Shown here one piece after another: positions 3,843-58,627 of a DNA stretch of 64,000 bases. A program made the translations under genes and the position numbers. Source of the stretch: Deltaproteobacteria bacterium (GTDB lineage: Bacteria > Myxococcota_A > UBA796 > GCA-2862545); NCBI GenBank assembly GCA_006226595.1, contig SBGP01000013.1:1-64000 (forward strand), given 5' to 3'. The notes beneath the pieces are model-generated. The model was not told where the DNA came from. It did not search any database and saw nothing but the letters and a program-made list of their open reading frames with translations. Every line of letters begins with the position of its first letter. The first letter of the stretch is position 1.

Positions 3843-5989
3843 TCGGCTTGTGGCTGTCGCTCGCGCTCGCGGCCGAGGTCGAGATCCGCGTGGTCTCCAA
3901 GGGCAGCTTCGACCCGGTCGACGATGCCGAGCTGCTCGTCGAAGGGGTGGTGGTCAGCACCGATGCGCGAGGTCTCGCCACGGTCGAGCTCCCGGACAGC
4001 GGCGGGTCGCTGACGGCTCGCCACCCGGATCACCACCCCGCCACCGTGGTGGTCGAGGGCGCGCCGCCCGAGCGACTGCGCGTCGTGCTCGAGCCGCTGC
4101 CGCCGGGACACGAGGTCGTGGTGGAGGCCTTCAAGCGCTCGGGGCACTTCTCGCAGCACGTGGTTGACGCCGAGGTCGCGCTCGAGACGCCGGGCACGCT
4201 CGATGACGTGGTGCGGCTCGCTCAGTCCCTGCCGGGCGTCACCGTCCAGCGCGAGTACGCGCCGGGCTCGGGAAGCCTGTCGGTGCGCGGCTCGTCGCCG
4301 GGCGAGAACCGCACGCTGCTCGACGGCATCGACATCCCTTACCTGTACCACTTCAACCAGTACGCGAGCGTGGTGCCGACCTCGCAGCTGCGCGACCTCG
4401 AGCTGCTTCCCTCCGGCTTCGGCGCGGCCTGGGGTGATGCGGTCGGCGGCATCGTCAGCGCGCGCACCAAGCTCGAGCGACCCGCCGCGATGCACGGCAG
4501 CGTCGGGCTGAACTTCGTGATGGGCAGTGCCTCGCTCGAGGTGCCGCTGCCCAAGGGTGCGTGGCTCTCGGTGAGTGGCCGGCGCTCGTACCAGGACCTC
4601 GTGGGCGAGCAGACGGCTCAGTACACGCTGTGGCCGATCTTCGGCGACTACACGGTTCGCGCCGGGCGAAAGGACGGGCCCTACACCTACGAAGTGTTCG
4701 TGCAGGGGGCGAGTGACCGCTACGACCGCGCGGCCGGCGAGCTCGACCTGCTCGACCCGTGGGAGGCGACCCAGGTCCCGAGCTTCGCGTACCGCCGCGG
4801 GTTCACGCTGATCGGCGCGCGCGGTGCGTGGGAGCCCGGCCAGACCGAGGCCCGGTGGACCGTGGCCTACGTCGGCGACCGCCTCGACGGCGAGCTCACC
4901 GGCCAGGGGCGTGAAGAGAAGCGCGAGCACGGCGTGCGCGCCCGCGTCGAGGTCGAGAACCGGGCCGCACCCATCCAGATCGACACCGGGGCCGAGCTCC
5001 GCGTCGACCGCATGCACCTCTCGGTCGTCGACCCCGGGCCGGCGGCGCTGCTCGTCGCCACCGAGGCACCGGCGCTCGCCCGCGGTGTGGCGGTCGATGC
5101 CGATCGTTGGCGCATGCGCGGCGCCACCTGGGTCCAGGGACACCTCGTCGCCGGCGACCTCCGGGTGGTCCCGGGCGTGCGACTCGGCGCTGACAGCGTC
5201 ACGGGTGCGGTGGTCGAGCCCCGGATGGCCGCCACGCTGCAGCTCGCGGACCAGACCGCGCTCAAGCTCGCGGGCGGGCTCTACCACCAGGCCCCGGCGA
5301 CCGAGCACCTCGTCGAGGGGACCGGCTCGCCGAACCTGCCGCTGTCGCGCTCGCTGCAGGCGGGGGCCGGCGTCGAGCAGACGGTCGCCGGTCGCCTCGA
5401 GCTCGCGGTGGAGGGGTACGCCAAGGCCATCGAGGACCCGCTCGTGTACCCGATCGACGGCCCCGCCCAGGTGTGGGACGCCGGTCGCGCCTACGGGGTG
5501 GAGCTCGTCAGTCGCTACCGCATCCGCGAGACCTTCTTCGTGCGCACGTGGATCGGCGTGGCACGCGCCACGGTCGTCAATCCGTCGGGGCAGCGGGTGA
5601 GCGCGGACGGCGATCAGCCGCTCAACGCCGGTCTCGTCGGCAGCCTCGACCTCGCGAAGGGCATCAACCTCGGCGTCCGTTATCGCCTGGGCAGCGGCCT
5701 GCCGTATACGCCGCTCGAGGGCAGCCTCCACGACGCGGGCACCGACACGTGGCTGCCCATCGCCGGCGAGAAGAACGCCGCCCGCCTGCCCGTGTACCAG
5801 AAGCTCGATCTGCACTTCGAGAAGACGTGGACGATGCAGCGCTGGCAGCTGTCCCTGCTCGCCGAGCTCTGGTACGTGCCGAAGAAGAGCGCTCAGCTCT
5901 ACCCGACGTGGAACTACGACTACACCGAGCAGGGCTGGGTCATCGGCCCGACCGTGCTGCCGCTGCTCGGGATGCGCGCCCGCTTCTGA
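3839..5989 (+). CDS. TonB-dependent outer-membrane receptor with carboxypeptidase-regulatory-like domain
   Basis: 716 aa, ATG at 3839 inside the stop of the preceding gene. Short signal peptide (MIGLWLSLALA), then a carboxypeptidase-regulatory-like beta domain (about 15-90), then a plug domain (about 110-215) with the typical LAQSLPGVTVQRE, SVRGSSPGENRTLLDGIDIP and GFGAAWGDAVGGIV blocks, then a long 22-strand-type barrel ending in Phe (LLGMRARF), as outer-membrane proteins do. Imports a ligand across the outer membrane using TonB/ExbBD energy; the ligand is not evident. An ExbD-like protein is encoded at 41228, far away. No adjacent siderophore, sugar or B12 genes hint at the substrate. Confidence 0.85.
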   Translation: MIGLWLSLALAAEVEIRVVSKGSFDPVDDAELLVEGVVVSTDARGLATVELPDSGGSLTARHPDHHPATVVVEGAPPERLRVVLEPLPPGHEVVVEAFKRSGHFSQHVVDAEVALETPGTLDDVVRLAQSLPGVTVQREYAPGSGSLSVRGSSPGENRTLLDGIDIPYLYHFNQYASVVPTSQLRDLELLPSGFGAAWGDAVGGIVSARTKLERPAAMHGSVGLNFVMGSASLEVPLPKGAWLSVSGRRSYQDLVGEQTAQYTLWPIFGDYTVRAGRKDGPYTYEVFVQGASDRYDRAAGELDLLDPWEATQVPSFAYRRGFTLIGARGAWEPGQTEARWTVAYVGDRLDGELTGQGREEKREHGVRARVEVENRAAPIQIDTGAELRVDRMHLSVVDPGPAALLVATEAPALARGVAVDADRWRMRGATWVQGHLVAGDLRVVPGVRLGADSVTGAVVEPRMAATLQLADQTALKLAGGLYHQAPATEHLVEGTGSPNLPLSRSLQAGAGVEQTVAGRLELAVEGYAKAIEDPLVYPIDGPAQVWDAGRAYGVELVSRYRIRETFFVRTWIGVARATVVNPSGQRVSADGDQPLNAGLVGSLDLAKGINLGVRYRLGSGLPYTPLEGSLHDAGTDTWLPIAGEKNAARLPVYQKLDLHFEKTWTMQRWQLSLLAELWYVPKKSAQLYPTWNYDYTEQGWVIGPTVLPLLGMRARF

Positions 5990-6000
5990 CCGGAGGCCCC

Positions 6001-6351
6001 ATGCCCACCCTCATCGAACAGCCCTTTCGCGTGCCCGGCGTCGAGCCGAAGATCATCGAAGAGCACGTGGGCAAGGTGAACACCGGGGAGCCGCGGCTCT
6101 CGATCGCGCACATGCGCGCCCCCGCGGGCTGGTCCGAGCCTGGCCAGCGTCCGCGCTTCGACGAGTGGACCCTCGTGCTCTCCGGCTGCATGCGCGTGGC
6201 CTTCGAGGGCGGCGCTCTCGACGTGCGCGCCGGTCAGACCGTGCACTGCGCGCCCGGCGAGTGGGTGCAGTACTCCACGCCCGAGCCCACCGAGTACGTG
6301 GCCGTGTGCCTGCCCGCCTTCGACCCGGACGAAGCTCGGCGGGACGCCTGA
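6001..6351 (+). CDS. Cupin-domain protein
   Basis: 116 aa small single-domain cupin. The barrel signature is visible (FDEWTLVLSGCMRVAFEGG then RAGQTVHCAPGEWVQYSTPEPTEYVAV). The His-x-His metal ligands of cupin motif 1 and the His of motif 2 are not in their usual places (Pro/Phe and Gln instead), so metal binding is doubtful and a binding or regulatory role is possible. ATG at 6001 follows GGAGGCCCC. Stop overlaps the next gene by one base. Substrate unknown. Confidence 0.75.
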   Translation: MPTLIEQPFRVPGVEPKIIEEHVGKVNTGEPRLSIAHMRAPAGWSEPGQRPRFDEWTLVLSGCMRVAFEGGALDVRAGQTVHCAPGEWVQYSTPEPTEYVAVCLPAFDPDEARRDA

Positions 6352-6743
6352 TGTCGCGCTGCCGCTGCCACTCCGGAAAGACCGAGAAGCGCTGCTGTGG
6401 GCCGCTGCACGCCGGCAAGGCCGCGCCCACCGCGGAGGCGCTGATGCGCTCGCGCTACGCGGCCTACGCCAAGGGCATGGTCGACTACGTGCTCGACACC
6501 ACCGCACCGGGACCGATGCAGCAGGACGACCGGGCCGCCTGGGCCGATCAGGTGCGGCAGTTCTCCGCGGGGACCCGCTTTCTCGGGCTACGCATCGCCG
6601 AGCACGTCGATGGCGAGGAGGAGGCCTTCGTGACCTTCTTCTGCACCCTCGAACAGGGCGGCCGGGACGCGTCCTTCGGCGAGCGCTCGCGCTTCGTGAA
6701 GGTGGGTGGGCGCTGGGCCTACCACTCGGGTCAGCCGGCCTGA
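6351..6743 (+). CDS. YchJ-family SEC-C motif protein
   Basis: 130 aa. N-terminal zinc-binding SEC-C-type motif CRCHSGKTEKRCCG followed by the YchJ family segment ALMRSRYAAYAKG and a SnoaL/NTF2-like fold with a C-terminal GRWAYHSG. Members are small cytosolic proteins of unknown biochemical role. The start overlaps the cupin stop by one base (TGATG), so both are probably one transcript. Confidence 0.85.
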   Translation: MSRCRCHSGKTEKRCCGPLHAGKAAPTAEALMRSRYAAYAKGMVDYVLDTTAPGPMQQDDRAAWADQVRQFSAGTRFLGLRIAEHVDGEEEAFVTFFCTLEQGGRDASFGERSRFVKVGGRWAYHSGQPA

Positions 6744-6806
6744 CGCGACCCCGGGGGACCGCGCCAGGCGAGGGCGGGGCGGTGGTGAGGACCGCCCCGT
6801 CCGTCG

Positions 6807-6983
6807 CTAGCCGACCCAGAGGTGCGCGAAGCCGTTGGCGATGCTGGCGGCCATGGCGCTGTGGGCCATCATGGGCGCGAGAACGCTCTGCGCGAGTCCA
6901 TGTCCCACCATCACTGCCGCGGACGCGAACAGGCTGCCGAAGAAAACCATCTCGAAGTTCGACTCGGGACGACGACGAAGCAT
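6807..6983 (-). CDS. Small membrane protein
   Basis: 58 aa. ATG at 6983 is preceded by AGGAGG with ideal spacing. Sequence starts MLRRRPESNFEM and contains one or two hydrophobic helices (VFFGSLFASAAVMVGHGLA, then SVLAPMMAHSAMAASIANG). Tail AHLWVG. No homologue recognised. Its leader shares 15 identical bases with that of the membrane-protein gene at 9742 (see finding). An alternative GTG start five codons upstream (7001) would add MNPGGC. Confidence 0.5.
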   Translation of the reverse strand: MLRRRPESNFEMVFFGSLFASAAVMVGHGLAQSVLAPMMAHSAMAASIANGFAHLWVG

Positions 6984-6986
6984 GCA

Positions 6987-7001
6987 ACCTCCTGGGTTCA
7001 C
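6987..7001 (-). promoter_or_regulatory. Leader motif with ribosome-binding site, shared with 9724-9738
   Basis: On the reverse strand the leader reads GTGAACCCAGGAGGT immediately before the ATG at 6983. The same 15 bases precede the ATG at 9742. It includes the Shine-Dalgarno AGGAGG, but the conserved bases extend further upstream than a ribosome site needs. Confidence 0.45.
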
Positions 7002-7227
7002 TGATGGCTACGGGCCGTCCGGGGAAACATTTCCAGATGGGTTGACGATTTCTGGATGTGACGGCCCAGTGACGCCGAAAGTGCGCTTCCCTGGCGGATC
7101 TTCTCGCTGAGATCTTTTTCGCCGATCGCGTTCACACGAGGTTCATCTCGGGTTCGCGGTCGTTTCGCACGCGTGCAGCGCCGCATCCACGGGGCTCGTC
7201 GAAGCTGTGAGGGCTCAAGGAGGAGCC

Positions 7228-45937: not shown

Positions 45938-46561
45938 TCACCCGCGCCCGAGGCCCGCGAGGCCCCGGGCCACGAGCAGGTGCGAGGTCGCGAGCACGAC
46001 GTGGAACACGTTGATCGCCTGAAAGGGCCCGAGATCGCCCTTCGTGCCGATCGCCAGCCCGGCGACGGCGATGCCGAGGGCGCCTGCCGCGAGGGTCGCG
46101 CCGGCGAGGCTTCGGTCGCGGAGGGCAGCGCCGCACATGACCAGGACGGCCACTGCGCCGATGGCGGTGCGGTAGGCTTCCGCGCGCAGCAGGACCTGGA
46201 ACACGGCCCAGCCGAGGAGCAGCGCGCCGATGCCGACCTCGGCGATCCACCGCTTGCCTCGGGTGACGAGCAGCATGGCGACGAGCGCGAAGCAGCCCGG
46301 GGACACGGCGCCCGCGAGGTGACTGGCGCCGCGATGCAGTCGCTCGAGGTTGTCGAGCCCTGCGTAGCGGGCGCTACCGAGCCCCGCGGCGAGGGCCATC
46401 AGTCCCATGCCGAGCGCGCCGTAGCGCACGATCGCGTGGGGCTGGCGCACGAGCCACACCCCGGCGCTGGCGCAGGTCACGGCGAGCAGGAGGTCGAAGA
46501 GCGCGACGAACATCGCGAACAGGGTAGCGCTCGGCGAGGCCTGCGGGGGCCAGTCGTCCAT
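45938..46561 (-). CDS. Multi-pass membrane protein of unknown function
   Basis: 207 aa from ATG 46561 (AGGAAG upstream); a start at 46597 is possible. About six hydrophobic helices (LFAMFVALFDLLLAVTCASAGVW, YGALGMGLMALAAGLG, IGALLLGWAVFQVLL, AVAVLVMCGAALRD, AGALGIAVAGLAIG, AINVFHVVLATSHLLVARG). His-rich ends could bind metal or haem, but no family is recognised. Its start codon overlaps that of the divergent fragment at 46560. Confidence 0.55.
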   Translation of the reverse strand: MDDWPPQASPSATLFAMFVALFDLLLAVTCASAGVWLVRQPHAIVRYGALGMGLMALAAGLGSARYAGLDNLERLHRGASHLAGAVSPGCFALVAMLLVTRGKRWIAEVGIGALLLGWAVFQVLLRAEAYRTAIGAVAVLVMCGAALRDRSLAGATLAAGALGIAVAGLAIGTKGDLGPFQAINVFHVVLATSHLLVARGLAGLGRG

Positions 46562-46751
46562 GCTCTTCCTGATGGCTGCTCCTGCGTTCGCCTTCAAGGC
46601 TTGTCCCGAGGGCCTCTCGACCGCCGAGTACGAGACGGTGAGGGTGCCGCTCGACCGCGCGCGACCCGACGGGGAGGTGGTGCACCTCGAGGTGAGGCGC
46701 CTGCCCGTCCAGCCTGCACGGGGGCCGCTGGGGTTCGTGGCGGGCGCCTGA
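46560..46751 (+). pseudogene. Truncated alpha/beta-hydrolase (tripeptidyl aminopeptidase-like) remnant
   Basis: 63 codons. Signal peptide MLFLMAAPAFAFKAC followed by YETVRVPLDRARPDGEVVHLEV and ARGPLGFVAG, which look like the N-terminus of secreted TAP-type alpha/beta hydrolases just before the expected GGPG(Q/S) oxyanion loop. The frame then reads VAGA-stop where GGPG would be, and no downstream hydrolase sequence remains in any frame of the following 240 bp. I read it as a deletion remnant rather than a working small protein. Confidence 0.5.
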
Positions 46752-46993
46752 TTGCGCTTGCCGCGTTCAGGCGGCGGCGCTATGCCCAGAGGGACGCCAC
46801 GATTCGCGTTCCAACCCCTTTCCCTACGGAGGTGCCTGATGACTGTGCTTGCAACGACCTCCGGGACCCGCTGAACCGACGTCGCTCCCGCGGCCTCGGC
46901 CGCCGGCTCCCGATGACCTGACCCTCCGCGCGCTCGCCCGTGCGGTTGCTGGCCTGCGTGTGCAGGCCGACCTCATTGTGTCTGGAGTCGGCG

Positions 46994-48010
46994 TTGACCG
47001 ATCACATCTCCCTGTCTCGGCTCGGCTGGGACGAGGCCTGGGCTGCAGAGCTGCACCCGGGCGAAACCGCCGCACGCGTGCTCACCACGCACCGCGGTGC
47101 TGCCGTCGTCTGCGCGCCTTCGGGCGTGCGTACCCTCGATCTGCCCGATCCCATCGCCGTCGCCGGTGACTGGGTCACGGTGGAGGAAGAGGAGCACCGC
47201 TCGCTCGTCGGGCGCGTGCTGAACCGTCGAACCCTCATCCGTCGTCGCGCCGCAGACGACGTAGGAGACCAGTTTCTCGCGGCCAACGTAGACACGTGCT
47301 TCCTGGCCACCTCGCTCAACCAGGACTTCAACCTCAGGCGCTTGCTCCGCTTCTCAGCGGTGGTCGGCGACTCCGGAGCCGAGGTCGTGGTGGTGCTCAC
47401 CAAGGCGGATCTGTGCCCGAATCCCTGGGCCCGGGTCGCGGAGGTCGAGCGCTTGATGCCCGGCGTGCCGGTGCTCGCCACGAGCGCGGTGTGGGGCCTG
47501 GAGGGGGCCCTCGACCCCTGGCTCGGTCCGGGGCGCACGGTGTGCTTTCTCGGGACCTCGGGCGTCGGCAAGTCCTCGCTCGTCAACGCGCTGATGGGCG
47601 ATGCCGTGCAGACGGTCAAGGCCCAGCGCGAGGACGACGACCGTGGGCGGCACACGACCGTGCGTCGCGAGCTGCTCGTGCTGCCCGAGGACCGCGGGTG
47701 CGTACTCGACACGCCCGGCATTCGCGCCGTGGGTGTGGACTCGACCGACGCGGTGCGCTCGGCCTTCGCGGACATCGAGGCCATGGCCGAGGCTTGCCGC
47801 TATCGGGACTGCGAGCACGACTCGGAGCCCGGGTGCGCGGTGGTGGAGGCCCTTGCGAGCGGGGAGCTCTCCGAGGAGCGGCTGACCAACTGGCAGAAGC
47901 TGCTTCGTGAGGCCACACGCCACGAGGCCAAGGGCTATCGCAAGCGCGCCGGTCAGAAGCGCAAGTACAGCCGCAAGTCGTACGCCGGCGAGCGTCTGGA
48001 CGAGTGGTGA
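46994..48010 (+). CDS. rsgA: Ribosome small-subunit-dependent GTPase RsgA
   Basis: 338 aa, TTG 46994 eight bases after GGAG; other starts upstream are without support. Circularly permuted GTPase in late 30S assembly: G4 TKAD precedes G1 GTSGVGKSS and G3 DTPGI. N-terminal OB fold (EAWAAELHPGETAARVL) and C-terminal zinc-knuckle CRYRDCEHDSEPGC. The C-terminus is basic (GYRKRAGQKRKYSRKSY) for RNA contact. Length normal. Confidence 0.93.
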   Translation: MTDHISLSRLGWDEAWAAELHPGETAARVLTTHRGAAVVCAPSGVRTLDLPDPIAVAGDWVTVEEEEHRSLVGRVLNRRTLIRRRAADDVGDQFLAANVDTCFLATSLNQDFNLRRLLRFSAVVGDSGAEVVVVLTKADLCPNPWARVAEVERLMPGVPVLATSAVWGLEGALDPWLGPGRTVCFLGTSGVGKSSLVNALMGDAVQTVKAQREDDDRGRHTTVRRELLVLPEDRGCVLDTPGIRAVGVDSTDAVRSAFADIEAMAEACRYRDCEHDSEPGCAVVEALASGELSEERLTNWQKLLREATRHEAKGYRKRAGQKRKYSRKSYAGERLDEW

Positions 48011-48097
48011 GGCGGGCCGGTGGCCCGATTCGCTCGCGCAGCGGGTCGGGTCATCGGTGGCGCGGGCCGGTGTGGTAGCACCGTGGCAGGAGGCTTC

Positions 48098-48952
48098 ATG
48101 AGCCAGTTTCTTGCCGATATCAAAGCGACCTTCGGGCCCGAGGCGCTCGTGCGCCTGGTCTTCGACTGGGCTCCCGGGCTGATTGCCGCGACCCTGACCC
48201 TGGTTGTGTTCTGGTTCCTGAATCGCGTGGTCGCGCGCATCCTCGACCGGGTGTTCGCACGGGCCGAGCTCGACCTCACCGCGGCGGCCTTCGTGCACAC
48301 GATGGTGCGCTTCGGGCTCGGCGTCGTCGGCGTGCTCACCGCCCTCAACCAGCTCGGTGTCGACACGACCTCGGTGCTCGCGAGCCTGGGCGTGGTCGGC
48401 CTCACCCTCGGCTTTGCGGCCCAGAACACGCTGTCCAACGTGATCAGCGGACTGTTCATCTTCTGGGACCGCCCCTTCGTGCTCGGGGACCTGGTCGAGG
48501 TCGATGGCGAGTACGGGCGTGTCGACTCCATCACCCTGCGCTCGACCCGACTCGTGACGGTGGATGGGCGTATGCTCGCCATCCCGAACGCAATCATTGC
48601 CGAGAGCAAGGTGGCTTCCTACACCAACTTCCCGCACCTTCGCCTCGATCTCGAGGTCACCGTGGGCGTCAACGAGCCCATCGGCAAGGTGCGCGAGGTG
48701 CTGCTCGGCCTGTGCAACGAGCCGCAGTTCCTGACCGAGCCCGCCCCCGAGGTCGTGGTGGTCGCGCTCAACGACTACAACGTCCTCGTCGAGCTTCGCG
48801 TGTGGCTGCGGGACGAGACCACCCACATGCGCGAGCGCTTCGCCCTGCGCGAGCGCATGAAGGACGCGCTGGATGCGGCCCAGGTCGAGATGCCGTTCGA
48901 GACGCTCCAGCTGCTCCCGATGGACGTGCGAACGACGCAGGCTCCCGCGTGA
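48098..48952 (+). CDS. MscS-family mechanosensitive channel
   Basis: 284 aa, ATG 48098 with CAGGAGG upstream. Three helices (about 23-45, 70-92, 95-115), the pore helix with VLASLGVVGLTLGFAAQNTLSNVISG, the beta domain PFVLGDLVEVDGEYGRVDSITLRST(R) and IPNAIIAESKV, and a C-terminal alpha/beta domain. Opens under membrane tension to relieve osmotic downshock. Standard small MscS size. Stands alone between rsgA and the barrel/ABC operon. Confidence 0.93.
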   Translation: MSQFLADIKATFGPEALVRLVFDWAPGLIAATLTLVVFWFLNRVVARILDRVFARAELDLTAAAFVHTMVRFGLGVVGVLTALNQLGVDTTSVLASLGVVGLTLGFAAQNTLSNVISGLFIFWDRPFVLGDLVEVDGEYGRVDSITLRSTRLVTVDGRMLAIPNAIIAESKVASYTNFPHLRLDLEVTVGVNEPIGKVREVLLGLCNEPQFLTEPAPEVVVVALNDYNVLVELRVWLRDETTHMRERFALRERMKDALDAAQVEMPFETLQLLPMDVRTTQAPA

Positions 48953-49040
48953 AGCGTGGCTTCGACCGGATCGACGGGGAAGTTCCCGCCGGAGCGTCCC
49001 CGGCGCTTGACGGGCACCCCGCCGGCGTTAGGTTCAGTCA

Positions 49041-49058
49041 TATCGGAAACATCCGATA
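49041..49058. promoter_or_regulatory. 18-bp perfect palindrome, putative operator of the barrel/ABC operon
   Basis: TATCGGAAACATCCGATA: 7-bp arms around AACA. It overlaps a GATAAT -10-like hexamer (49055-49060) and sits 19 bp before the preferred TTG start (49077). A dimeric repressor (TetR/MarR type) here would block transcription of the operon. Confidence 0.6.
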
Positions 49059-49076
49059 ATTCAGATGGAGCTTTGC

Positions 49077-50357
49077 TTGCCTCGCCTCCTGCTCGCCGCC
49101 CTGCTCCTCGCCACGCCCCTGGCGAGCGCTGAGGAGCCCACGGGCACGGCCTCCGGCTTCGCCGAGCTCCGCATCACCGGCAGCGTCGGGGTCGAGGGCA
49201 AGGCGTTCCAGGCGGTCGAGCGCTTCCGGCCGACCTTCGAGGCCGACCTCGCGGAGCGCTGGGTCCTGGCGACGACCATCGAGGCGCACCTCGCGCAGGG
49301 ACGTGACACCGAAGAAGAGCTGGTCCGGGTGATCCAGAACAGCGAGCTCGGCGATCTCGTGCCCGACGGCACCTTCCCCGAGAACAACAACGAGCGCCTC
49401 GACATCGACGACGCGGGGGACGTGTTCCGCGTCGATCGGCTGTACCTGGACCACTACGGCGAGAAGGTCGACGTGCGCATCGGCCGCCAGGCGCTGCAGT
49501 GGGGCTCGGCCTACGCGGTGAACCCGACCGATCCGTTCCCGCAGGTGCTCGTCACCGAGCCCTGGGCACCGCGCGCGGGCATCAACGCTGGACGCATCAC
49601 CGTGCCCTTCGGCGGCGTCCACAAGGTCCAGGCGGTGCTCGCCACCGACGACCTGTTCACCGAGCTTCGCGGCGCGGGCCGACTCACGTTCAACGCGCTG
49701 CAGACCGACTGGAGCGTGGTCGGTTGGGGGCGTCACACCAACCTCCTCTCCGAGGATGGCGTGTACGACGGGCTCGTCGGCGTGGACCTCCGCGGAACCC
49801 TCGGCGTCGGCTGGTGGCTCGAGGGCGGGCTGCGCCTCGCCGAGGAGAAGTACGGCCTGCTCGCGGTGGGCGTGGACTACTCGTTCCCGGTATTCCAGTC
49901 GTTCATCGTCGTCGGTCAGTACATCTACAACGGCGCTGGCGAGCCGGACCCCGACAACTACGATCCACTGGCCCGCTTCCAGATGGTCATGGACCCTGAC
50001 GCGGCCTCGGCTCTCGATCCAGCAGCGCCGTTCTTCCTCGGGCAGCACTACGCCATGCTCGTGGTCAATGCCGGGCTCACCCAGGACCTGAGCTTCACGC
50101 TCGCCTCCTTCCAGAACCTCGAGGACGGGTCCGGTTTCGCCGTGCCCACGGTCGGCGTGCGCCCGAACGGCTGGTGGGAGGTGTCGCTGTCGGCACAGCT
50201 GCCGTACCGTCTCGCGGGTCCCGGCGAGTTCTCTCCCGCGGACGAGGACCTCGTGCTCTCGGTCGAGCCGCTCCCGGGTGTCGGCCCGTACACCGCGGAC
50301 TTCTCGGGCATCTACCCCGATGCCACCTTCATCCTCTGGACCCGTGCCAGCTTCTAG
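49077..50357 (+). CDS. Outer-membrane beta-barrel protein of an ABC/lipoprotein-sorting operon
   Basis: 426 aa from TTG 49077, which has GGAG six bases upstream; ATG 49065 would add four residues without a ribosome site. Signal peptide LPRLLLAALLLATPLASAEE. Barrel with repeating aromatic/Gly strands (FRPTFEADLAERWVLATTIEAHL, VDVRIGRQALQWGSAYAVNP, WWEVSLSAQLPYRLAG) and C-terminal Phe (RASF). Resembles DUF1302-type barrels (the VRIGRQALQWG motif is typical). Followed nine bases later by the ATPase gene. Confidence 0.78.
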   Translation: MPRLLLAALLLATPLASAEEPTGTASGFAELRITGSVGVEGKAFQAVERFRPTFEADLAERWVLATTIEAHLAQGRDTEEELVRVIQNSELGDLVPDGTFPENNNERLDIDDAGDVFRVDRLYLDHYGEKVDVRIGRQALQWGSAYAVNPTDPFPQVLVTEPWAPRAGINAGRITVPFGGVHKVQAVLATDDLFTELRGAGRLTFNALQTDWSVVGWGRHTNLLSEDGVYDGLVGVDLRGTLGVGWWLEGGLRLAEEKYGLLAVGVDYSFPVFQSFIVVGQYIYNGAGEPDPDNYDPLARFQMVMDPDAASALDPAAPFFLGQHYAMLVVNAGLTQDLSFTLASFQNLEDGSGFAVPTVGVRPNGWWEVSLSAQLPYRLAGPGEFSPADEDLVLSVEPLPGVGPYTADFSGIYPDATFILWTRASF

Positions 50358-50365
50358 GACGACCC

Positions 50366-51043
50366 ATGGCCCTGTGTGAACTCGACAACGTCGACAAGAT
50401 CTACGGAAGCGGAGAGCTCGCCGTGTACGCGCTCAAGGCGGTGACCACCACGGTCACCGAGGGCGAGTTCACCGTGTTCTCCGGACCGTCGGGCTCGGGC
50501 AAGACCACGCTGCTCAACATGGTCGGCTGCCTCGACGTCCCTTCCAGCGGCACCGTGAAGATTGCCGGCACCGACGTCGGGCGGCTGTCGCAGGTGGAGC
50601 TCGCGCACCTGCGCGCGGACAAGATCGGCTTCATCTTCCAGAGCTTCAACCTCATCCCCGTGCTCTCGGCGGTCGAGAACGTGGAGCTCGCGCTGCAGCT
50701 CGCCGGCCAGGTCGAAGGTCGCCGGGACAAGGCGTCCGGCATCCTCGACAAGGTCGGCCTCGGAAGCCTGCTGCACCGGCGTCCCAACGAGCTCTCCGGC
50801 GGTCAGCAGCAGCGCGTCGCGATTGCCCGCGCCCTGGTGAAGCACCCGTCGCTGATCATCGCCGACGAGCCGACCGCGAACCTCGACAGCAAGAGCGGCG
50901 GCGCCGTCCTCGACCTCATGCGCGAGATGAACGAGGAGAGCGGCGTGACCTTCTTGTTCTCGACCCACGACCCGGCGGTGATGGAGCGCGCGAAGCGCGT
51001 CGTCACGCTGGTCGACGGCGTGATCGCCGACCAGGGGAGGTAG
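50366..51043 (+). CDS. ABC transporter ATP-binding protein (LolD/MacB type)
   Basis: 225 aa. Walker A GPSGSGKTT, signature LSGGQQQR, Walker B LIIADEPT, H-loop STHD, and the MacB/LolD-specific ALKAVTTTVTEGE and GFIFQSFNLIPVLSAVENV. Partner of the two FtsX-type permeases that follow (three and zero-base gaps). Energises extraction of a lipid or lipoprotein from the inner membrane, or MacB-like export. Confidence 0.93.
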   Translation: MALCELDNVDKIYGSGELAVYALKAVTTTVTEGEFTVFSGPSGSGKTTLLNMVGCLDVPSSGTVKIAGTDVGRLSQVELAHLRADKIGFIFQSFNLIPVLSAVENVELALQLAGQVEGRRDKASGILDKVGLGSLLHRRPNELSGGQQQRVAIARALVKHPSLIIADEPTANLDSKSGGAVLDLMREMNEESGVTFLFSTHDPAVMERAKRVVTLVDGVIADQGR

Positions 51044-51046
51044 CGG

Positions 51047-52264
51047 GTGTACCTCTTCCGACTCGCGTTCAAGAACCTGTGGCGAAGCCCGGGTCGCAAC
51101 GCCCTCACCACCATCGCGGTCGTGGCGGGGGTGTGGATGCTCATCCTCGGCCAGGGCTTCATCGGCGGGTTCAAGGAGAACATCATCCGCGCGCAGGTCG
51201 ACACGGTCTCCGGCCACCTGTTCGCCGTGCCCTCGGACTACCCGACCACGGGCCTGTCGCACCCGATCGACGAGCTCGTCGAGGTCGACGCCGACGACGT
51301 CGCCTGGCTCGATGCGAACACCAGGGCATGGACCAAGCGCACCCTGTTCACGCCGCGCGTGATCTCCGGTGCCGACGGCATTCGCGCCCGCGGCATCGTC
51401 ATCGACTGGGACAAGGACCCCACGGTCTTCGACCGCCGCACGTGGAACGTGAGCCCCGAGGACGCGCTCGACGAGCCTGGCGTGCTGCTCTCGAAGGGGG
51501 TCGCCCGCCTGCTCGAGGTCGGTCCCGGCGACGCGGTGACGCTGGAAGCGCGCACGCACTCCGGCCAGATCAACGCGCTGCGCGTGCAGGTCCGCGGGGT
51601 CGTGTCCGTGGCGAACCCGATGATCGACAACCTCGGCATCTTCGTCGACCGCGAGCTCGGCGAGGACCTGCTGCGGCTCGGCGGCAAGGCCTCCCACGTG
51701 GTGATGATGATCGACGACCGCGATGCGACGGCGGCGACCAAGGCGGCCATCGGCGACCGCTTCGGCGATGGCGTCGACATCGTCACCTGGCAGGAAGAGA
51801 CCAAGGAACTCCTCGACCTGCAGGAGATCCGCCAGCGCGCCCTGAACTTCCTCGTGCTCGCGCTGCTCGCGATGAGCGGCGCCGGCATCGCGAACACGGT
51901 GCTCATGGCGGCCTACGAGCGCGTCGGCGAGATCGGCACGCTGCGCGCGATGGGCATGACCCAGCGCGACGTGCTCGGCTTGTTCCTCATCGAGGGAGGC
52001 CTGGTCGGCGTGCTCGGCTCGGTGCTCGGCGTCGTCCTCGGTGCGTCGATGGTCGGCTACTGGTCGGTCAATCCCATCGATCTCTCCGGCCAGATGGACC
52101 AGATCGGCAACAACATCCCCGTGTCCACCTTCCTGTGGACCGTGTTCGAGCCGTCGGTGCTCGTCCGGGGCTTCTTCTTCGGCGTGATCATGGCCACGCT
52201 CGCCAGCGTCTACCCGGCGCGGGTGGCGTCCAACATGAGCCCCGCAGACGCGGTGAGGGCCTGA
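51047..52264 (+). CDS. FtsX-like ABC permease, first of two
   Basis: 405 aa, GTG start after AGGGGAGG. One N-terminal helix (about 15-38), a large periplasmic domain (about 40-270), and three C-terminal helices with ALLAMSGAGIANTVLMAAYERVGEIGTLRAMGMTQRD typical of FtsX permeases (key RVGEIGTLRAMGM). LolC/LolE or MacB topology. Overlaps the next permease by one base. Confidence 0.9.
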   Translation: MYLFRLAFKNLWRSPGRNALTTIAVVAGVWMLILGQGFIGGFKENIIRAQVDTVSGHLFAVPSDYPTTGLSHPIDELVEVDADDVAWLDANTRAWTKRTLFTPRVISGADGIRARGIVIDWDKDPTVFDRRTWNVSPEDALDEPGVLLSKGVARLLEVGPGDAVTLEARTHSGQINALRVQVRGVVSVANPMIDNLGIFVDRELGEDLLRLGGKASHVVMMIDDRDATAATKAAIGDRFGDGVDIVTWQEETKELLDLQEIRQRALNFLVLALLAMSGAGIANTVLMAAYERVGEIGTLRAMGMTQRDVLGLFLIEGGLVGVLGSVLGVVLGASMVGYWSVNPIDLSGQMDQIGNNIPVSTFLWTVFEPSVLVRGFFFGVIMATLASVYPARVASNMSPADAVRA

Positions 52265-53490
52265 TGCTCCTGCTTCGACTCGCAGTCCGCAACGCGCGGC
52301 GCAACGTGACCCGCTCCGCGCTCACCGCGTTCACGGTGATGCTCGGCACCGCACTCGTGTGCGTGTTCCTGTCTTGGATCGAGGGCGTGTTCGGCACGAC
52401 CCTGCTCGGCTCGACGAACGCCATCGGCCACGTGAGGGTCGTCGACCCGGACTTCGCCCAGCGCGAGCAGCTCCAGCCGATGTACGAGAACGTGCCTGAC
52501 GCGCTCGCCTTCGCCGAGAAGCTGTCGAGCAAGCCCGGGGTCGTCGCCGCCTTCCCGAAGATCATGACCGGCGCCACGGTCGAGGTCGACGGCACCATCG
52601 GCGACGTGTTCGCGCCCGTCGCGGGTGCCCCGGCCGCGTACTTCAGCGACCGCCTCGATGCGGGCAAGTCGCTGGTCGACGGCACGCTGTTCACCGGCAA
52701 GGGCAAGGAGTTCGTGATCGGCGTCAAGGTCGCCGAGAAGGCCAAGGCCAAGGTCGGCGACGAGCTCGTGCTCACCGGGGTCACCCAGGACGGGGCGACA
52801 TCCGCGATCATCGGCACCATCGTCGGCATCACCTCGGGCGATGCGCTCACCAGTCAGCAGATCTGGGCGCCCCTCGACGAGATCCAGTACCTGACCGACC
52901 TCGGCGACGCGTCCACCGAGGTGCTCGTGTTCGCGGACGACTACGAGAATGGCAGCGACCTCGCGGCCTCACTGCGCGCGGACCCCGACCTCGCCGAGTA
53001 CACCGTGCAGGCGTGGGACGAGCGCGAGCCGTTCAACGGGCTGATGCAGACCGTGCAGGTGATGAAGGTCATCATGAACGGCATCATGGTGTTCATCGCC
53101 TCGCTCGCGATCTGGAACACGATGACGATGAGCGTGCTCGAGCGGACCAGCGAGATCGGCGTTCTCCGCGCCATGGGACTGACGCGCGGCCGCACCGTGT
53201 TGCTGTTCCTCTACGAGGCCGTGCTCATCGGCGCCATGGGCGGCGTGGCGGGCCTGTTCCTCGGCGGCGGCCTCGCCTATTACCTCGAGGTCCACGGCGT
53301 CGAGCTCGGCGAGGAGGTCACCCAGAACATGGATGCGAACATGGCCATGTCCTCCCACGTGTACGGCGACGTCAACGCCGAGGTCCTGATCACCGCGTTC
53401 TTCGTCGGCCTGCTCATGGCAGCGGTCGGCAGCCTCGTCCCCGCGATTCGCGCGAGCCGGGTCGAACCCGTCGTCGCGATGCGCGCCTAG
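52264..53490 (+). CDS. FtsX-like ABC permease, second of two
   Basis: 408 aa, ATG within the preceding stop. Same topology as the first permease; conserved MSVLERTSEIGVLRAMGLTRGRTVLLFL and AIRASRVEPVVAMRA (ending). Together the two would form a heterodimer. Eight bases before the lipoprotein-sorting gene. Confidence 0.9.
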   Translation: MLLLRLAVRNARRNVTRSALTAFTVMLGTALVCVFLSWIEGVFGTTLLGSTNAIGHVRVVDPDFAQREQLQPMYENVPDALAFAEKLSSKPGVVAAFPKIMTGATVEVDGTIGDVFAPVAGAPAAYFSDRLDAGKSLVDGTLFTGKGKEFVIGVKVAEKAKAKVGDELVLTGVTQDGATSAIIGTIVGITSGDALTSQQIWAPLDEIQYLTDLGDASTEVLVFADDYENGSDLAASLRADPDLAEYTVQAWDEREPFNGLMQTVQVMKVIMNGIMVFIASLAIWNTMTMSVLERTSEIGVLRAMGLTRGRTVLLFLYEAVLIGAMGGVAGLFLGGGLAYYLEVHGVELGEEVTQNMDANMAMSSHVYGDVNAEVLITAFFVGLLMAAVGSLVPAIRASRVEPVVAMRA

Positions 53491-53498
53491 GAGCCCCC

Positions 53499-54272
53499 AT
53501 GCGAAGCCTGATCACCGCGCTGTGCCTGATGCTCGCGGCCCCCGCCCTCGCCGAGGAGCCCGCCGCGGCCCCCCGGTTCGCCGAGCAGCCGACGGCCGAG
53601 CAACTGCTGTCGGCCCTCGACGACAACCTCACCTTCGAGTCGCGGACGACGACGATCAAGATGACGGTCGTGAACCCGCGCCGTACCCGTGAGTTCACGA
53701 TGCGGACCTTCGCCCGCGGAGAGGACGAGGCCTCCATCGAGTACCTGTCGCCGACCCGCGACGCCGGGACCAAGATGCTCCGTCGTGGCGACGAGCTGTG
53801 GATGTACATCCCCAACGTCGAGCGCACCCAGAAGATCTCCGGACACATGCTTCGCCAGGGGATGATGGGCTCGGACATGTCCTACGAGGACATGATGGCG
53901 AGCACCGAGTGGGAGGAGCTGTACACCGCCTCGGTCACGGGGGCCGACGAGGTGAACGGTCGCAAGTGCTGGAAGGTCGAGCTGCTCGCGAAGGACGACA
54001 CGGTGACCTACCCGAAGCGGGTGAGCTGTGTGGATGCCGAGACGGGCATTCCGACCAAGCAGGAGCTGTACGCACTCTCCGGCATGCTGCTCAAGACGTG
54101 GACCATGGAGGACGTGAAGATCTTCGAGGGCGGACGTCGCTTCCCGACCAAGATGACCATCTCGGACAAGCTGAAGGAGGGCACGTACACGACCATCGAG
54201 ATGTCCGACATCACGTTCGGCGTCGAGCTCGAGGACGAGATCTTCTCGCAGCGCTGGCTGGAGCGCCGCTAG
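53499..54272 (+). CDS. Outer-membrane lipoprotein-sorting protein-like (LolA-fold)
   Basis: 257 aa with signal peptide MRSLITALCLMLAAPALA. LolA/LolB-like single beta-sheet fold with the typical family blocks TTIKMTVVNPRRTREFTMRTFARGED (in part), DELWMYIPNVERTQKI, LRQGMMGSDMSYEDMM and YPKRVSCVDAETGIPTKQELY. Same family as proteins annotated as outer-membrane lipoprotein-sorting proteins next to two-permease ABC operons. Likely a periplasmic carrier for a lipid or lipoprotein moved by the adjacent transporter. Confidence 0.85.
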   Translation: MRSLITALCLMLAAPALAEEPAAAPRFAEQPTAEQLLSALDDNLTFESRTTTIKMTVVNPRRTREFTMRTFARGEDEASIEYLSPTRDAGTKMLRRGDELWMYIPNVERTQKISGHMLRQGMMGSDMSYEDMMASTEWEELYTASVTGADEVNGRKCWKVELLAKDDTVTYPKRVSCVDAETGIPTKQELYALSGMLLKTWTMEDVKIFEGGRRFPTKMTISDKLKEGTYTTIEMSDITFGVELEDEIFSQRWLERR

Positions 54273-54380
54273 CGAGACGCGGCGCCGGACCCTCGCTGGC
54301 AAGGGGATTCTCGACCCCTCCGTGGGGACGCTCATGCGGCTTGACCCTTCCGGGGGCCTCTGGGATCCTGCCTTCGGAGG

Positions 54381-57300
54381 TTGACGCTGTCGCAGGGCGA
54401 CCAGACGGGGGCCTGGCATCGCCCGGGCTGGGGCCTGGGCGTGACGCTGGTCTCGCTCCTCATCGCGCTCATCGCGGCGGTGGCGGTCCTGCGCGTACAG
54501 GAGGCGTCGCGCGTCGAGCTCGTGCGTCGTCAGGTCGAGCTCCTCGAGCGTGTGGATGCGCCCCTCGACGACTGGGAGCGCCGTCGCCGTGTGGCGATCC
54601 GCGAGCTGGTGGTCATGCCGGAGGTCCGGGCCGCGGTGCTCGGCATCCTCCACCGGGACGTGTCCGAGCTGCTCGAGTGCCCCGAGCAGCAGGCCCTCCG
54701 CCGCGTGGTTGGGCGCGAGCTCGCCCGTCGCGGTGACCTCGGTCTGTTCGTGATCCGTCCCGACGGCACGAGCCTGGCGTCCATGCACGACGACAACGTC
54801 GGCACGCCCAACTTCCTCATGGAACGACATCCGGAGCGCATGGCGCGGGCCTTTGCGGGTGAGACCGTGTTCGTGCCCGCGGTGAGGTCCGACGTCGAGC
54901 TGCGCCCCCGAAGCGGTGGGGTGCGCCCGGCCGGCTACCCGACGGCGTTCTTCGCCACGCCGATCGTCGAGGAGGGCGAGGTCGTCGCGGTGTTCACGGT
55001 GCGCGTCGATGCCGCCCACGAGTTCGCGCAGCTCGCACTCGGGTACTTCGGAGAGACGGGCGAGGTCGTGGCCTTCTCCGAAGACGGTCGCCTCGTGTCG
55101 CGCTCCCGCTTCGAGGACGCGCTGCGAGCCGAGGGCCTGCTCGGACCCGATGAGTCGTCCCTGGTCGCGCTCTCCGTGAAGCTGCCCGAGGGCGTGCTCG
55201 AGGCGCTCCCGGGGACGGGTGGCGGCCAGAGCGCGCGCCCCTACGTGAACTACCGCGGTGCGCGCGTGATCGGCGCGTGGCGGTGGGACGAGACCCTCGG
55301 CATCGGCCTGCTCGCCGAGCGAGAGGTGGGCGAGGTCGTCGCGGTCGGCGGGAGGACCTGGCTGGGGCTCGTCGTCCTTCTTCTCGTCGGCTTGCCGCTG
55401 GTGTTCCTTACCTTGCGGCGCTTCGGGGGTCGCCCCTACGCGGCCCCCGTGCTCGTCGCCGTCGTGTTCATCGTGCTCGCGCTGGTGGTGTTCGGTGCCA
55501 CGCTCCGGCAGATTCGATCGGATGCACGGCACGACGGGGAAGGGCGCGCGCACCTGCTCGCCTCGAAGACCCAGGCGGCGGTGGATGGCTGGCTTCAGGT
55601 TCGCCTCGAGGAGCTGGCGCTGCTCGGCCAGGAGTCCGATGTTCGCCGGGCGGTGCTCGCGCTGCGCGAAGCCAGCGCAGACGGTGCTGCCGATTCCCAG
55701 GCGCTCGTCGCGTTGAGCGAGCGAGTGCGAGCGGTGAGCCACGCCCACGACGACCCTGGGTTCTTCGTGATGACCGAGGACTTCACGTGTCTGGTCAGCG
55801 TCGGCGGAGGCTGCGACATCCAGCTCGAGGAAGCACGCCCGGCGCTCGACGGCCGCACCTGGTTCGTCGGAGACCAGGAGGAGGGTCGCCGGTCCAACGC
55901 ACTCCTGCTCGGGCCGGTAGAGGAGGATGGTGAGGTCATCGCCATGCTCGCGCTCCGCCTCGACACCGCCGGCGAACTGTCGCGGTACGCGAGGCTCGGC
56001 CGCCAGGCGCTCACCGGCGAGACCTACCTCGTCGACGCCCACGGGCGTCGCATCACGCCGAGTCGGTTCTCGGGGGACGAGTCCGGCGTTGGCCTGCCCA
56101 TCCATGCGCCGACGGGCAGCCCGCCCCGGTCTGTCCGCGAGGTCATGCTGGGCCGCAGCGGCTCGACGGCTCTGGCCTACGTCGGGGAGCGGGGCGTCCC
56201 GCTCCTCGGAGCCTGGGTGTGGTCCGACGAGTACCGTTACGGCGTGGTCTCGGAGATTCACGTCGCCGAGGTCGAGGAGTCGGTCGCGGCCGAGATCGAG
56301 CTGTCGATGTGGCTCAACGTCGCGGGTGCGGTGATCGCGAGCCTCGCCGGTCTGCTGCTGCTCGCTGCGGTACGCGAGCGTCAGCGCGAAGAGGTCGCGG
56401 AGCTCGTCGAGGCGCGGCAGCTCGCCGAGCAGGCGAACCTCGCCAAGGACGCGTTGCTCGCCAACGTGACCCACGAGCTGCGAACGCCGATGAACGGCGT
56501 CATCGGCATGATCGACCTCCTCATGCTCGGTGGACCGTCTCCGTTCCAGCGCGACAAGCTCCTCGTGATGCGCGACTCGGCCGAGAGCCTGCTCGCCGTG
56601 CTCAACGACCTGCTCGACTTCTCCAAGCTGCGCGGCGGCTACGTCACCCTCGAGGAGCGCGCATTTCCGCTTCGCGCGATGCTCGAGAACATCGTCGAGC
56701 TGCAGCGACCCGTCGCCCAGGACCGCGGCCTGGTGCTCATCGACGATCTGGATCCGGACCTGCCTGAGTTCGTGAGGGGCGACAGCCTGCGGCTGCGGCA
56801 GGTGATCACCAACCTGCTCTCCAACGCGCTCAAGTTCACCGAGAGAGGGAGGGTTCGCCTGTCGGTGCGCCTCGGGCCCACGGGAATGCGCTTCGAGGTC
56901 TCCGACACCGGCATCGGCATCGCCCCGGACCACATCGAGCTGGTGTTCAAGGAGTTCGTCCAGGCCGAGGCGTCGACCACCCGGCGCTTCGGGGGCACGG
57001 GGCTCGGCCTTCCGATCTGCGTGCGCATCCTCGAGGCCATGGATTCCGAGCTCCACGTCGAGAGCGTTCCCGACAAGGGCAGCACGTTCTGGTTCACCTT
57101 GGAGCTACCCGAGGCCGACGCGCCGCTCGACGAGCCTTCGGAGCTGGACAGCAGCGGCGAGGGGCTTCGCACGGGCGTGCGCATTCTCGTCGCCGAGGAC
57201 AACGCCGTGAACCGGCGCCTGGCGCGGCTGGTGCTCGAAGGTGCGGGCCACGACGTCGTGCTCGCGCGAGACGGCGTGGACGCGGTGGACGCGGTGATGG

Positions 57301-57941
57301 CGGACCCGAGCTTCGACCTGGTGTTCATGGACGTGCAGATGCCGCGCTTGGATGGCATCGAGGCGGCACGTCGCATCCGCGCGACCTTCGATGCCGAGCG
57401 GCTGCCCATGGTGGCGCTGACCGCGCTCGATCGGGCCGAGGACATCCAGCGCGTGGAGGCGGTCGGTATGCAGGCGACCGTGGGCAAGCCCTTCGCGGCG
57501 GACGCGCTGCTGGCGGCGGTGCAGCGATGGGCCCGCGCGCAGCTCGACCTGCCCGACGAGCTGGAGCCGCTGCTCACTCCCGACCCTCCGAGCGCCGAAG
57601 AGCCGCTGGTCGACTTCCACAAGCTCGAGTCCGAGTGGGGTGGCCTCGGCGCGATCGAGGAGGTCCCCGCGCTGCTCACCGAGTTCCTCGAGGAGCTGCA
57701 CGGTCGTGAGCCCGTGCTGATCGACGACGACCTGGAGGGCGTGCGCCGCGCCTCTCACGCGCTCAAGTCCACGGCGGCCACCGTGTACGCGATGCCGCTC
57801 TCGCGCATGATGCGGAAGATCGAGCACGCGGCGGGTGACGGCAAGCTCGCGCTGGTGGCGGAGCTCCGCGGTGAGGCCATGCCGCTGATCGTCAACACCC
57901 GCGCCGAGGTCCGTCGCTACCTCGAGAACTCGGCGTCGTAG
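54381..57941 (+). CDS. Hybrid sensor histidine kinase with two Cache-like sensors, REC and Hpt
   Basis: 1186 aa. Start ambiguous: TTG 54381 directly abuts GGAGG, and a CTG at 54387 has better spacing; no ATG nearby. Helices near 18-40, 320-345, 353-375 and 630-655 frame two extracytoplasmic Cache-like domains (about 45-310 and 385-625). Coiled coil, HisKA H698 (NVTHELRTPMNG), ATPase (N box VITNLLSNALKF, G2 GTGLGLPI), receiver with D984 (LVFMDVQMP) and Hpt with H1126 (RRASHALKS). Full internal phosphorelay. Final 25 bp overlap the convergent REC-Hpt gene. Confidence 0.92.
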   Translation: MTLSQGDQTGAWHRPGWGLGVTLVSLLIALIAAVAVLRVQEASRVELVRRQVELLERVDAPLDDWERRRRVAIRELVVMPEVRAAVLGILHRDVSELLECPEQQALRRVVGRELARRGDLGLFVIRPDGTSLASMHDDNVGTPNFLMERHPERMARAFAGETVFVPAVRSDVELRPRSGGVRPAGYPTAFFATPIVEEGEVVAVFTVRVDAAHEFAQLALGYFGETGEVVAFSEDGRLVSRSRFEDALRAEGLLGPDESSLVALSVKLPEGVLEALPGTGGGQSARPYVNYRGARVIGAWRWDETLGIGLLAEREVGEVVAVGGRTWLGLVVLLLVGLPLVFLTLRRFGGRPYAAPVLVAVVFIVLALVVFGATLRQIRSDARHDGEGRAHLLASKTQAAVDGWLQVRLEELALLGQESDVRRAVLALREASADGAADSQALVALSERVRAVSHAHDDPGFFVMTEDFTCLVSVGGGCDIQLEEARPALDGRTWFVGDQEEGRRSNALLLGPVEEDGEVIAMLALRLDTAGELSRYARLGRQALTGETYLVDAHGRRITPSRFSGDESGVGLPIHAPTGSPPRSVREVMLGRSGSTALAYVGERGVPLLGAWVWSDEYRYGVVSEIHVAEVEESVAAEIELSMWLNVAGAVIASLAGLLLLAAVRERQREEVAELVEARQLAEQANLAKDALLANVTHELRTPMNGVIGMIDLLMLGGPSPFQRDKLLVMRDSAESLLAVLNDLLDFSKLRGGYVTLEERAFPLRAMLENIVELQRPVAQDRGLVLIDDLDPDLPEFVRGDSLRLRQVITNLLSNALKFTERGRVRLSVRLGPTGMRFEVSDTGIGIAPDHIELVFKEFVQAEASTTRRFGGTGLGLPICVRILEAMDSELHVESVPDKGSTFWFTLELPEADAPLDEPSELDSSGEGLRTGVRILVAEDNAVNRRLARLVLEGAGHDVVLARDGVDAVDAVMADPSFDLVFMDVQMPRLDGIEAARRIRATFDAERLPMVALTALDRAEDIQRVEAVGMQATVGKPFAADALLAAVQRWARAQLDLPDELEPLLTPDPPSAEEPLVDFHKLESEWGGLGAIEEVPALLTEFLEELHGREPVLIDDDLEGVRRASHALKSTAATVYAMPLSRMMRKIEHAAGDGKLALVAELRGEAMPLIVNTRAEVRRYLENSAS

Positions 57942-58627
57942 GCCTGCTGGATGCCCTGCAGCGCAGCGCGTCCCTCGAGCTGAAGGTCCGCGAGGTCCTG
58001 TTCGCGGGGGATGTCTTCGGCGTGGGCGATCAGCCGGGCGACCCGCGCGAGCTCGAACAGGCCCAGCGGACTCGCGATGCCCGCGAGCTGGTGGGCGATC
58101 GACTTGGCGGTGGTCACCTCGCCGGAAGCCGCCGCACTCGCAATCACGCGCAGGCGTCCCGGGGTCTTCATGAGGAAGCTCTGCAGCGTGTCCTTCAGCA
58201 GCCCGCGGTCGCCCGAGAGCTCTTCGATGCGGCGGATCGACGCGAGCGCATCCCGGCCGGGTGGCGTGAACGCGCGACCGCTGACCAGCCCTTGTTCAAG
58301 GCGCTCACGCGAGACGGGCTTGGGCACGCATCCGTTCATGCCGGCGGCCAGGCACTCGTCCTCGGCGTTCTCGCGTCCGGTGACGCCCAGGATGCGCGGC
58401 TGAGCGATCGGGAGCTTGCGGATCTGGTTTGCGGTCGCGAACCCGCTGATCCCGGGAAGCTCGATGTCGAGGAGGACCAGGTCTGGAGGCGACGCCGTGC
58501 ACGCGTTCACGGCCTCTTCGCCGCTCTGCACCGTGTCGACGTCGAAGCCGTAGCTGCGGAGCTGTGCCGCGAGCAGACGCGCCGCCACGGGCGAGTCCTC
58601 GACGACGAGAGCGCGAGCACGGTTCAC
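57917..58627 (-). CDS. Response regulator with receiver and Hpt domains
   Basis: 236 aa, GTG 58627 after GGAGGGAAC. REC domain with phospho-acceptor D54 (LVLLDIELPG) and KP motif GCVPKPVS, then an Hpt domain with H179 (KSIAHQLAG). Likely a phosphorelay intermediate working with the hybrid kinase whose 3' end it overlaps by 25 bp. Its start overlaps the stop of the receiver fragment upstream (GTGA). Confidence 0.85.
   Translation of the reverse strand: MNRARALVVEDSPVAARLLAAQLRSYGFDVDTVQSGEEAVNACTASPPDLVLLDIELPGISGFATANQIRKLPIAQPRILGVTGRENAEDECLAAGMNGCVPKPVSRERLEQGLVSGRAFTPPGRDALASIRRIEELSGDRGLLKDTLQSFLMKTPGRLRVIASAAASGEVTTAKSIAHQLAGIASPLGLFELARVARLIAHAEDIPREQDLADLQLEGRAALQGIQQAYDAEFSR

Follow-up and report, generated by a model that had tools for sequence, protein, structure and literature searches.

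A palindrome before an envelope-export operon is a likely operator of an unlinked GbsR-type regulator

The perfect palindrome TATCGGA-AACA-TCCGATA at 49041..49058 (no strand assigned) of the 64-kb stretch of DNA analysed here, hereafter the window, is most likely the operator through which P0001, a MarR-superfamily protein of the GbsR type whose gene lies outside the window, would repress the barrel/ABC/LolA-like export operon immediately downstream, with the same operator at the start of its own gene. The palindrome is located between an MscS-type gene and the five-gene operon, in an AT-rich dip preceding the latter (the window has a G+C content of 70%). A sequence-only reading of the window had described it as perfect and as running from 49041 to 49060; the palindrome is indeed perfect but ends at 49058, two bases earlier. 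Its right arm overlaps the hexamer GATAAT at 49055-49060, as had been noticed, and it spans positions -24 to -7 relative to the ATG at 49065, in agreement with the 20-odd bases before the first gene given in that reading. The 6-4-6 core, ATCGGA-N4-TCCGAT at 49042..49057 (likewise without strand), has the same geometry as the TTCAGT-N4-ACTGAA sites of relatives. Palindromicity alone is not rare here, as the window holds 10 perfect 7-N4-7 palindromes when 13.5 are expected. However, this is the only one with arms of at most 3/7 G+C (0.17 expected), and no part of the window other than 49041-49058 matches TATCGGA-N4-TCCGATA with three or fewer mismatches (0.89 expected).

All five genes of the operon lie on the plus strand. 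The first (49065..50357) encodes an outer-membrane beta-barrel according to an AlphaFold model and a PDB match, and is followed by genes for a LolD/MacB-like ABC ATPase (50366..51043; Pfam ABC_tran, NCBIfam), two FtsX/MacB_PCD (LolC/E-like) permeases (51047..52264 and 52264..53490; Pfam, NCBIfam) and a LolA_like periplasmic protein (PF17131; 53499..54272; Pfam), so that Pfam bears out the ATPase, the two permeases and the LolA-like protein that had been read from the sequence. For the first gene, neither Pfam nor NCBIfam gave a match at E <= 0.001; its AlphaFold model (mean pLDDT 85.9) is strand-rich, and the best PDB match is the barrel AlgE, an alginate exporter, with a TM-score of about 0.5. 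The NCBIfam cut-offs for LolCDE are missed (LolD 206 vs 307.75; LolCE 90 and 102 vs 362.45), and by sequence the products are like Lol, not Lol. In the window the operon is flanked by an MscS-like gene and a hybrid kinase gene; no TetR gene adjoins it, as the earlier reading had stated. Matches to the barrel gene occur in 38 of 58 genomes, counting its own. The same operon, with a barrel identity of 34-39%, was also seen in four MAG contigs (L122, L128, L129 and L133) whose Klebsiella pneumoniae labels look wrong.

The sequence-only reading had supposed a remote, autoregulated TetR-type repressor and had suggested searching the genome for the same site at a TetR or MarR gene. The genome assembly comprises 7,231,518 bases in 117 contigs and is 97% complete. 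Three places in these 7.23 Mb lie within two mismatches of the pattern: the window site, C1:414765-414782 and L003. Calculated analytically for the base composition of the window, the chance expectation over the genome is 0.003 exact matches, 0.19 at one mismatch or fewer and 5.0 at two or fewer. L003, with two mismatches, is inside long open frames and was taken as chance. The site on C1 (= L002:1501-1518), TATCGGA-TACA-TCCGATG, is a near-identical twin and the genome's only other copy within one mismatch, and it runs into the ATG of the P0001 gene (149 aa; G000:C1:414780-415226, on another contig). The search thus led to a MarR/GbsR-type gene: the proposal of a remote gene with the same site stands, and its assignment to the TetR type does not. 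Since the twin lies exactly at the start of a distant GbsR/MarR gene, the palindrome is most likely the binding site of P0001. No good promoter was seen at the start of the P0001 gene, where the candidate operator overlaps the start codon.

By reading, the end of the P0001 gene and the start of a nucleotidyltransferase gene (Pfam NTP_transferase; L002:1962-2810 = L072:10227-11075) share 4 bases; we take the latter gene to be galU-like, and another gene is joined to it in the same manner. Given these 4-base overlaps, the three genes are probably cotranscribed, and the regulator's own candidate operator probably governs the galU-like gene too, which would bring both the regulator gene and the overlapping nucleotidyltransferase gene into the circuit. 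Tetranucleotide usage of the C1 stretch correlates with that of the window at r 0.944, compared with 0.937-0.963 for pieces of the window and 0.63-0.90 for 13 stretches from relatives; this shared signature makes misbinning unlikely.

P0001 is a MarR-type winged helix-turn-helix protein (Pfam MarR_2, 39.7 bits against a cut-off of 27), and its PDB relatives are 4nb5, 1ku9 (Mj223) and 5jbr, with E values of 7e-11 to 3e-10 (3e-10 for 1ku9); the Mj223 fold has served as the template for models of the GbsR family (PMC6207618). It does not reach the CudC equivalog NF047500 of NCBIfam (34.2 bits vs 218). By sequence, both candidate P0001 sites have the 4-bp-spaced inverted repeat of GbsR-type operators. 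For GbsR of Bacillus subtilis, mutation and gel-shift experiments back an operator made of an inverted repeat with 4-bp spacing, and autoregulation of gbsR is described (PMC7396694). GbsR and OpcR resemble the system proposed here in being MarR-type repressors with 4-bp-spaced half-sites, paralogous regulators and, if P0001 acts on its own start as proposed, autoregulation, and differ from it in their control by choline and glycine betaine, their AT-rich operator and regulator genes divergent from their targets (PMC7396694). CydE of Alishewanella sp. WH16-1, also GbsR-type, represses cytochrome bd; its promoter has two binding sites, one footprint protecting TATTTCAGAAATTTCTGAAAGTTCA plus a second site, and the footprint contains TTCAGAAATTTCTGAA (PMC6096048). 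This footprint holds the 6-4-6 repeat TTCAGA-AATT-TCTGAA, the operator type of our relatives' regulators, whereas CydE differs from P0001 in regulating cytochrome bd, in being encoded within the operon it regulates and in having the half-site TTCAGA rather than ATCGGA (PMC6096048). A further GbsR-type protein, CioR, is reported to repress its own operon (PMC11837568). Literature searches combining GbsR, MarR repressor and palindromic operator, or lipoprotein-sorting/FtsX operons with MarR, returned no match. We infer that P0001 would bind as a dimer, contacting both ATCGGA half-sites on either side of the 4-bp spacer, and that the bound protein would repress rather than activate, standing in the way of RNA polymerase either at the promoter or shortly after the transcription start.

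Regulators and operators were also compared across relatives. P0001-like regulators occur in 50 of 58 genomes, own included (E <= 0.001). Among 29 relative loci fetched, 7 have such a regulator no more than 1.5 kb upstream of the barrel, and GbsR-like genes precede the barrel in 9 of 47 named loci; the two sets have genomes in common, and upstream neighbours among the 47 are lower bounds (tblastn at E <= 1e-3; six loci have less than 2 kb before the barrel). Regulators of this family are therefore neighbours of the operon in part of the order. TTCAGT-N4-ACTGAA precedes the regulator in eight of the nine GbsR-linked loci, and the divergent L097 (= G028) has CTTAGT-N4-ACTAAG. More broadly, for 24 of 28 short-type regulators the 100 bp upstream contain TTCAGTN4ACTGAA at two mismatches or fewer, against 0.04 in shuffles, and across the same 28 loci (118 kb) only 2 of 26 such matches lie away from regulator fronts. 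The 24 comprise 20 unique contexts; some sites among the 28 are identical, leaving 18 unique ones when L028 is also left out. Left out of the 28 as long-type were L013, L031, L032, L039, L147, L149, L150, L152, L154, L155 and L157; L153 and L156 were dropped as well, and L148 and L151, whose proteins are identical to those of L121 and L116, were not recounted. Five of 30 regulator loci (L020, L024, L029, L036 and L038) had been dropped for want of a local match. On inspection, L036 has a 2-mismatch site, L024, from the same genus, a 3-mismatch site, and L020, L029 and L038 look long-type. Several long-type loci have TTCAAT or TTCAG palindromes.

The palindromes of the relatives and of the window thus have 6-bp arms and a 4-bp spacer in common. 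The regulators adjacent to the operon (L011, L012, L014, L016, L017, L023, L115, L116, L121 and L145) are alike in operon and family and have an operator of P0001-site geometry before their own start. They differ from P0001 in the operator TTCAGT-N4-ACTGAA, in a recognition helix reading (S/A)(R/K)AS and in forming a clade to which P0001 does not belong. Nine of ten operon-adjacent sites contain a -35-like TTGACT, with a -10-like hexamer of varying quality 16-17 bases on. In L136, TCAGTCTTGACTGA stands before the operon at 5909-5922, no regulator was found within 6 kb upstream, and the site is the only exact TCAGTN4ACTGA of that genome, which makes the locus another candidate for an unlinked regulator by its sequence.

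The letters of the window site are its own. Matches within one mismatch were found in 5 of 93 genomes, namely its own and four others, and neither the regulator nor any of the five operon proteins has a homologue at the loci concerned in these four (L004-L009); the exact letters are absent from every other operon copy or homologous regulator examined. In the sole same-genus genome examined, the barrel lacks a homologue, the LolA-like proteins are all distant (32% identity at best) and no regulator exceeds 32% identity to P0001. The sequence-only reading had made its case depend on another copy, which the twin supplies, and on conservation in relatives, which is lacking for the exact letters but present for the architecture, as the 6-4-6 layout is shared. 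The palindrome does poorly on the operator model built from relatives (score -0.46; rank 249 among 63985 window positions), and its inner half-site ATCGGA does not fit the TTCAGW half-site of relatives and CydE.

Half-site and recognition helix depart from the family side by side. The window has aTCgGa where relatives have tTCaGt, and intermediate operators occur among relatives, with TTCGGT in L030 and TTCAGA in L021. The recognition helix of P0001 reads S52-Q-S-V-V-S-T-N-C-R and departs from its relatives at Q53, S54, V55 and C60: the 29 other short-type regulators have K/R at 53 (25 of them), A/G at 54 (29), S/A/T at 55 (29) and T at 60 (22). This pattern agrees with operator and helix having drifted together. 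In the tree, P0001 forms a long branch that falls between the long-type regulators and those of the short type. The possibility that it is a displaced orthologue of the operon-adjacent regulators was not upheld (AU p 0.013 for a clade with the adjacent group; 0.017 for the adjacent group plus f15; 0.035 for f15 alone). The f15 regulators, its highest-scoring homologues across 377 genomes of this phylum (40-41%), carry TTCAGT operators, and their loci have none of the five operon genes within 1.5-kb flanks. Because P0001 falls outside the operon-adjacent clade, the present pairing of operator and regulator may be a separate recruitment.

Two candidate promoters, both on the plus strand, fit the site and score equally. 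The GATAAT at 49055..49060, under the right palindrome arm, is a candidate -10 box for which TTCAGT at 49033-49038 makes a poor -35, while TTGACG-N16-TAGGTT at 49007..49034 would put the operator at about +1 to +18; the GbsR operator in gbsAB is likewise reported downstream of the start (PMC7396694). A stricter consensus scan of 46000-58000 found no promoter, and a simple scan at the palindrome found no terminator. The start of the barrel gene is ambiguous between the ATG at 49065, without an evident ribosome-binding site, and a TTG at 49077, a few bases after GATGGAG.

Outside the palindrome lie two further half-sites. TTCAGT at 49033..49038 (plus strand), an exact copy of the relatives' half-site, starts 9 bp before ATCGGA, and TCAGAT at 49061..49066 (minus strand) starts 9 bp after TCCGAT, with 5/6 bases equal. 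Among 20 unique relative operators, extra half-sites peak at exactly 9 bp (11/19 downstream, 8/20 upstream). Other offsets give 0-5, save for TTCAGT at +7 (11/20), a position within the operator, and for ACTGAA (7/20) at 18 bases ahead of the right half, which the 9-bp reading leaves unexplained. The half-site rule WTCNGW was drawn up post hoc, and independent data stand behind the exact TTCAGT and the 9-bp phase only. The outer half-sites may admit a second dimer, 9 bp away. A more speculative extension, to which we give well short of even credence, is a hybrid operator of four half-sites in a two-fold symmetric row at 9-bp phase, TTCAGT-N3-ATCGGA-N4-TCCGAT-N3-TCAGAT, in which the outer left half-site would have kept the TTCAGT of the family at large, whereas the two inner ones would be in the new dialect of an unlinked, co-changed repressor, possibly with two paralogous GbsR-type readers.

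A second reader could come from C14, where a paralogous set consists of a GbsR-like regulator, a LolA-like protein, an exported barrel-like protein and an FtsX permease (L071 = G000:C14:12000-20000, 3357-7226); the exported protein reads like a barrel, and no match to one was made. In front of the C14 regulator, TTCAGT-ATGT-TCTGAA is the genome's only site within one mismatch of TTCAGTN4ACTGAA. One may therefore ask whether the functional site of the window is the overlapping TTCAGT-CATA-TCGGAA at 49033-49048, read by the C14 regulator, with the palindrome as a second, competing or cooperating site. This stretch is the best of 63985 window positions on the relatives' operator model, and its TTCAGT half-site is exact and at the 9-bp phase common in relatives. 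We nevertheless consider this explanation improbable, as the stretch has two mismatches, a level at which the genome holds 22 matches vs 18 for the reversed control pattern, while the palindrome is perfect and common to the P0001 start. With the C14 regulator having its own TTCAGT site and P0001 its ATCGGA twin, the two regulators have separate operators, and the dialect found at the window operon is that of P0001.

Slightly less credit still goes to a remote TetR-type repressor as the reader of the palindrome, its dimer being released by an exported lipid or drug. TetR-type regulators had been said to be widely found with this operon, which is true for part of the family: they precede it in 7 of 47 loci (L093, L096, L104, L106, L107, L108 and L110), next to the nine with GbsR-like genes. 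The assignments in L106, L107 and L110 are weak matches (E 3e-6 to 1e-4), and the Pfam TetR_N check covered L093 alone. Each of the seven TetR reading frames stops 4 bases inside the barrel gene, and the presence of TetR-type genes at these loci shows that regulators have been exchanged on this operon. By eye, the TetR-linked loci bear other sites, and the TetR-type regulators of L093, L096, L104 and L108 share the target operon with P0001 but neither its fold nor its operator; moreover, the genome's only twin within one mismatch lies at a MarR/GbsR gene. The sites seen by eye are a palindrome of the type TGAC(C/T)GGATG-N4-CATC directly at the TetR start codon in L096, L104 and L108, and tandem sites of the type TGAC-N6-GTCA before the TetR genes of L107 and L110. 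Sites of the latter type were also seen by eye before the barrel in L091 (G008), where no adjacent regulator was found.

Two last readings we regard as barely credible. If transcription started near 49041, the palindrome could work at the RNA level, as a hairpin with a 7-bp stem and a 4-nt loop in a short 5' leader that affects translation or the stability of the mRNA; the alternative promoter would set it at the 5' end and it appears in the predicted fold of 49041-49100, but this fold does not surpass those of shuffled sequences (z -0.48; 70/200 as good), the relatives' 6-4-6 sites overlap -35-like boxes in 9/10 operon-adjacent cases and should hence be untranscribed there, and the twin lies at the gene of a DNA-binding regulator. 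Palindrome and twin could also be functionless products of chance, given how common 7-N4-7 palindromes are in the window and the 0.19 genome matches expected within one mismatch, yet the sole twin marks the start of the very kind of regulator that adjoins the operon elsewhere, the arms are low in G+C and the outer half-sites are in phase.

Operation of the palindrome as a P0001 operator would turn an unexplained repeat into a named operator/regulator pair that can be tested at the bench. The analysis also suggests a code for a regulator group that has been little described, in which 6-4-6 palindromes, mostly TTCAG(T/A), label the starts of the phylum's short GbsR-like genes. A conserved envelope-export operon appears with differing repressor genes in related bacteria, be they TetR, adjacent GbsR-like or distant GbsR-like, and P0001 with the window operator provides a small, self-contained example of a repressor and its operator changing in concert. 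If the hybrid operator were true, it would tie a sugar-nucleotide gene (galU-like) to an outer-membrane export machine, and would show operator and repressor drifting together after becoming unlinked.
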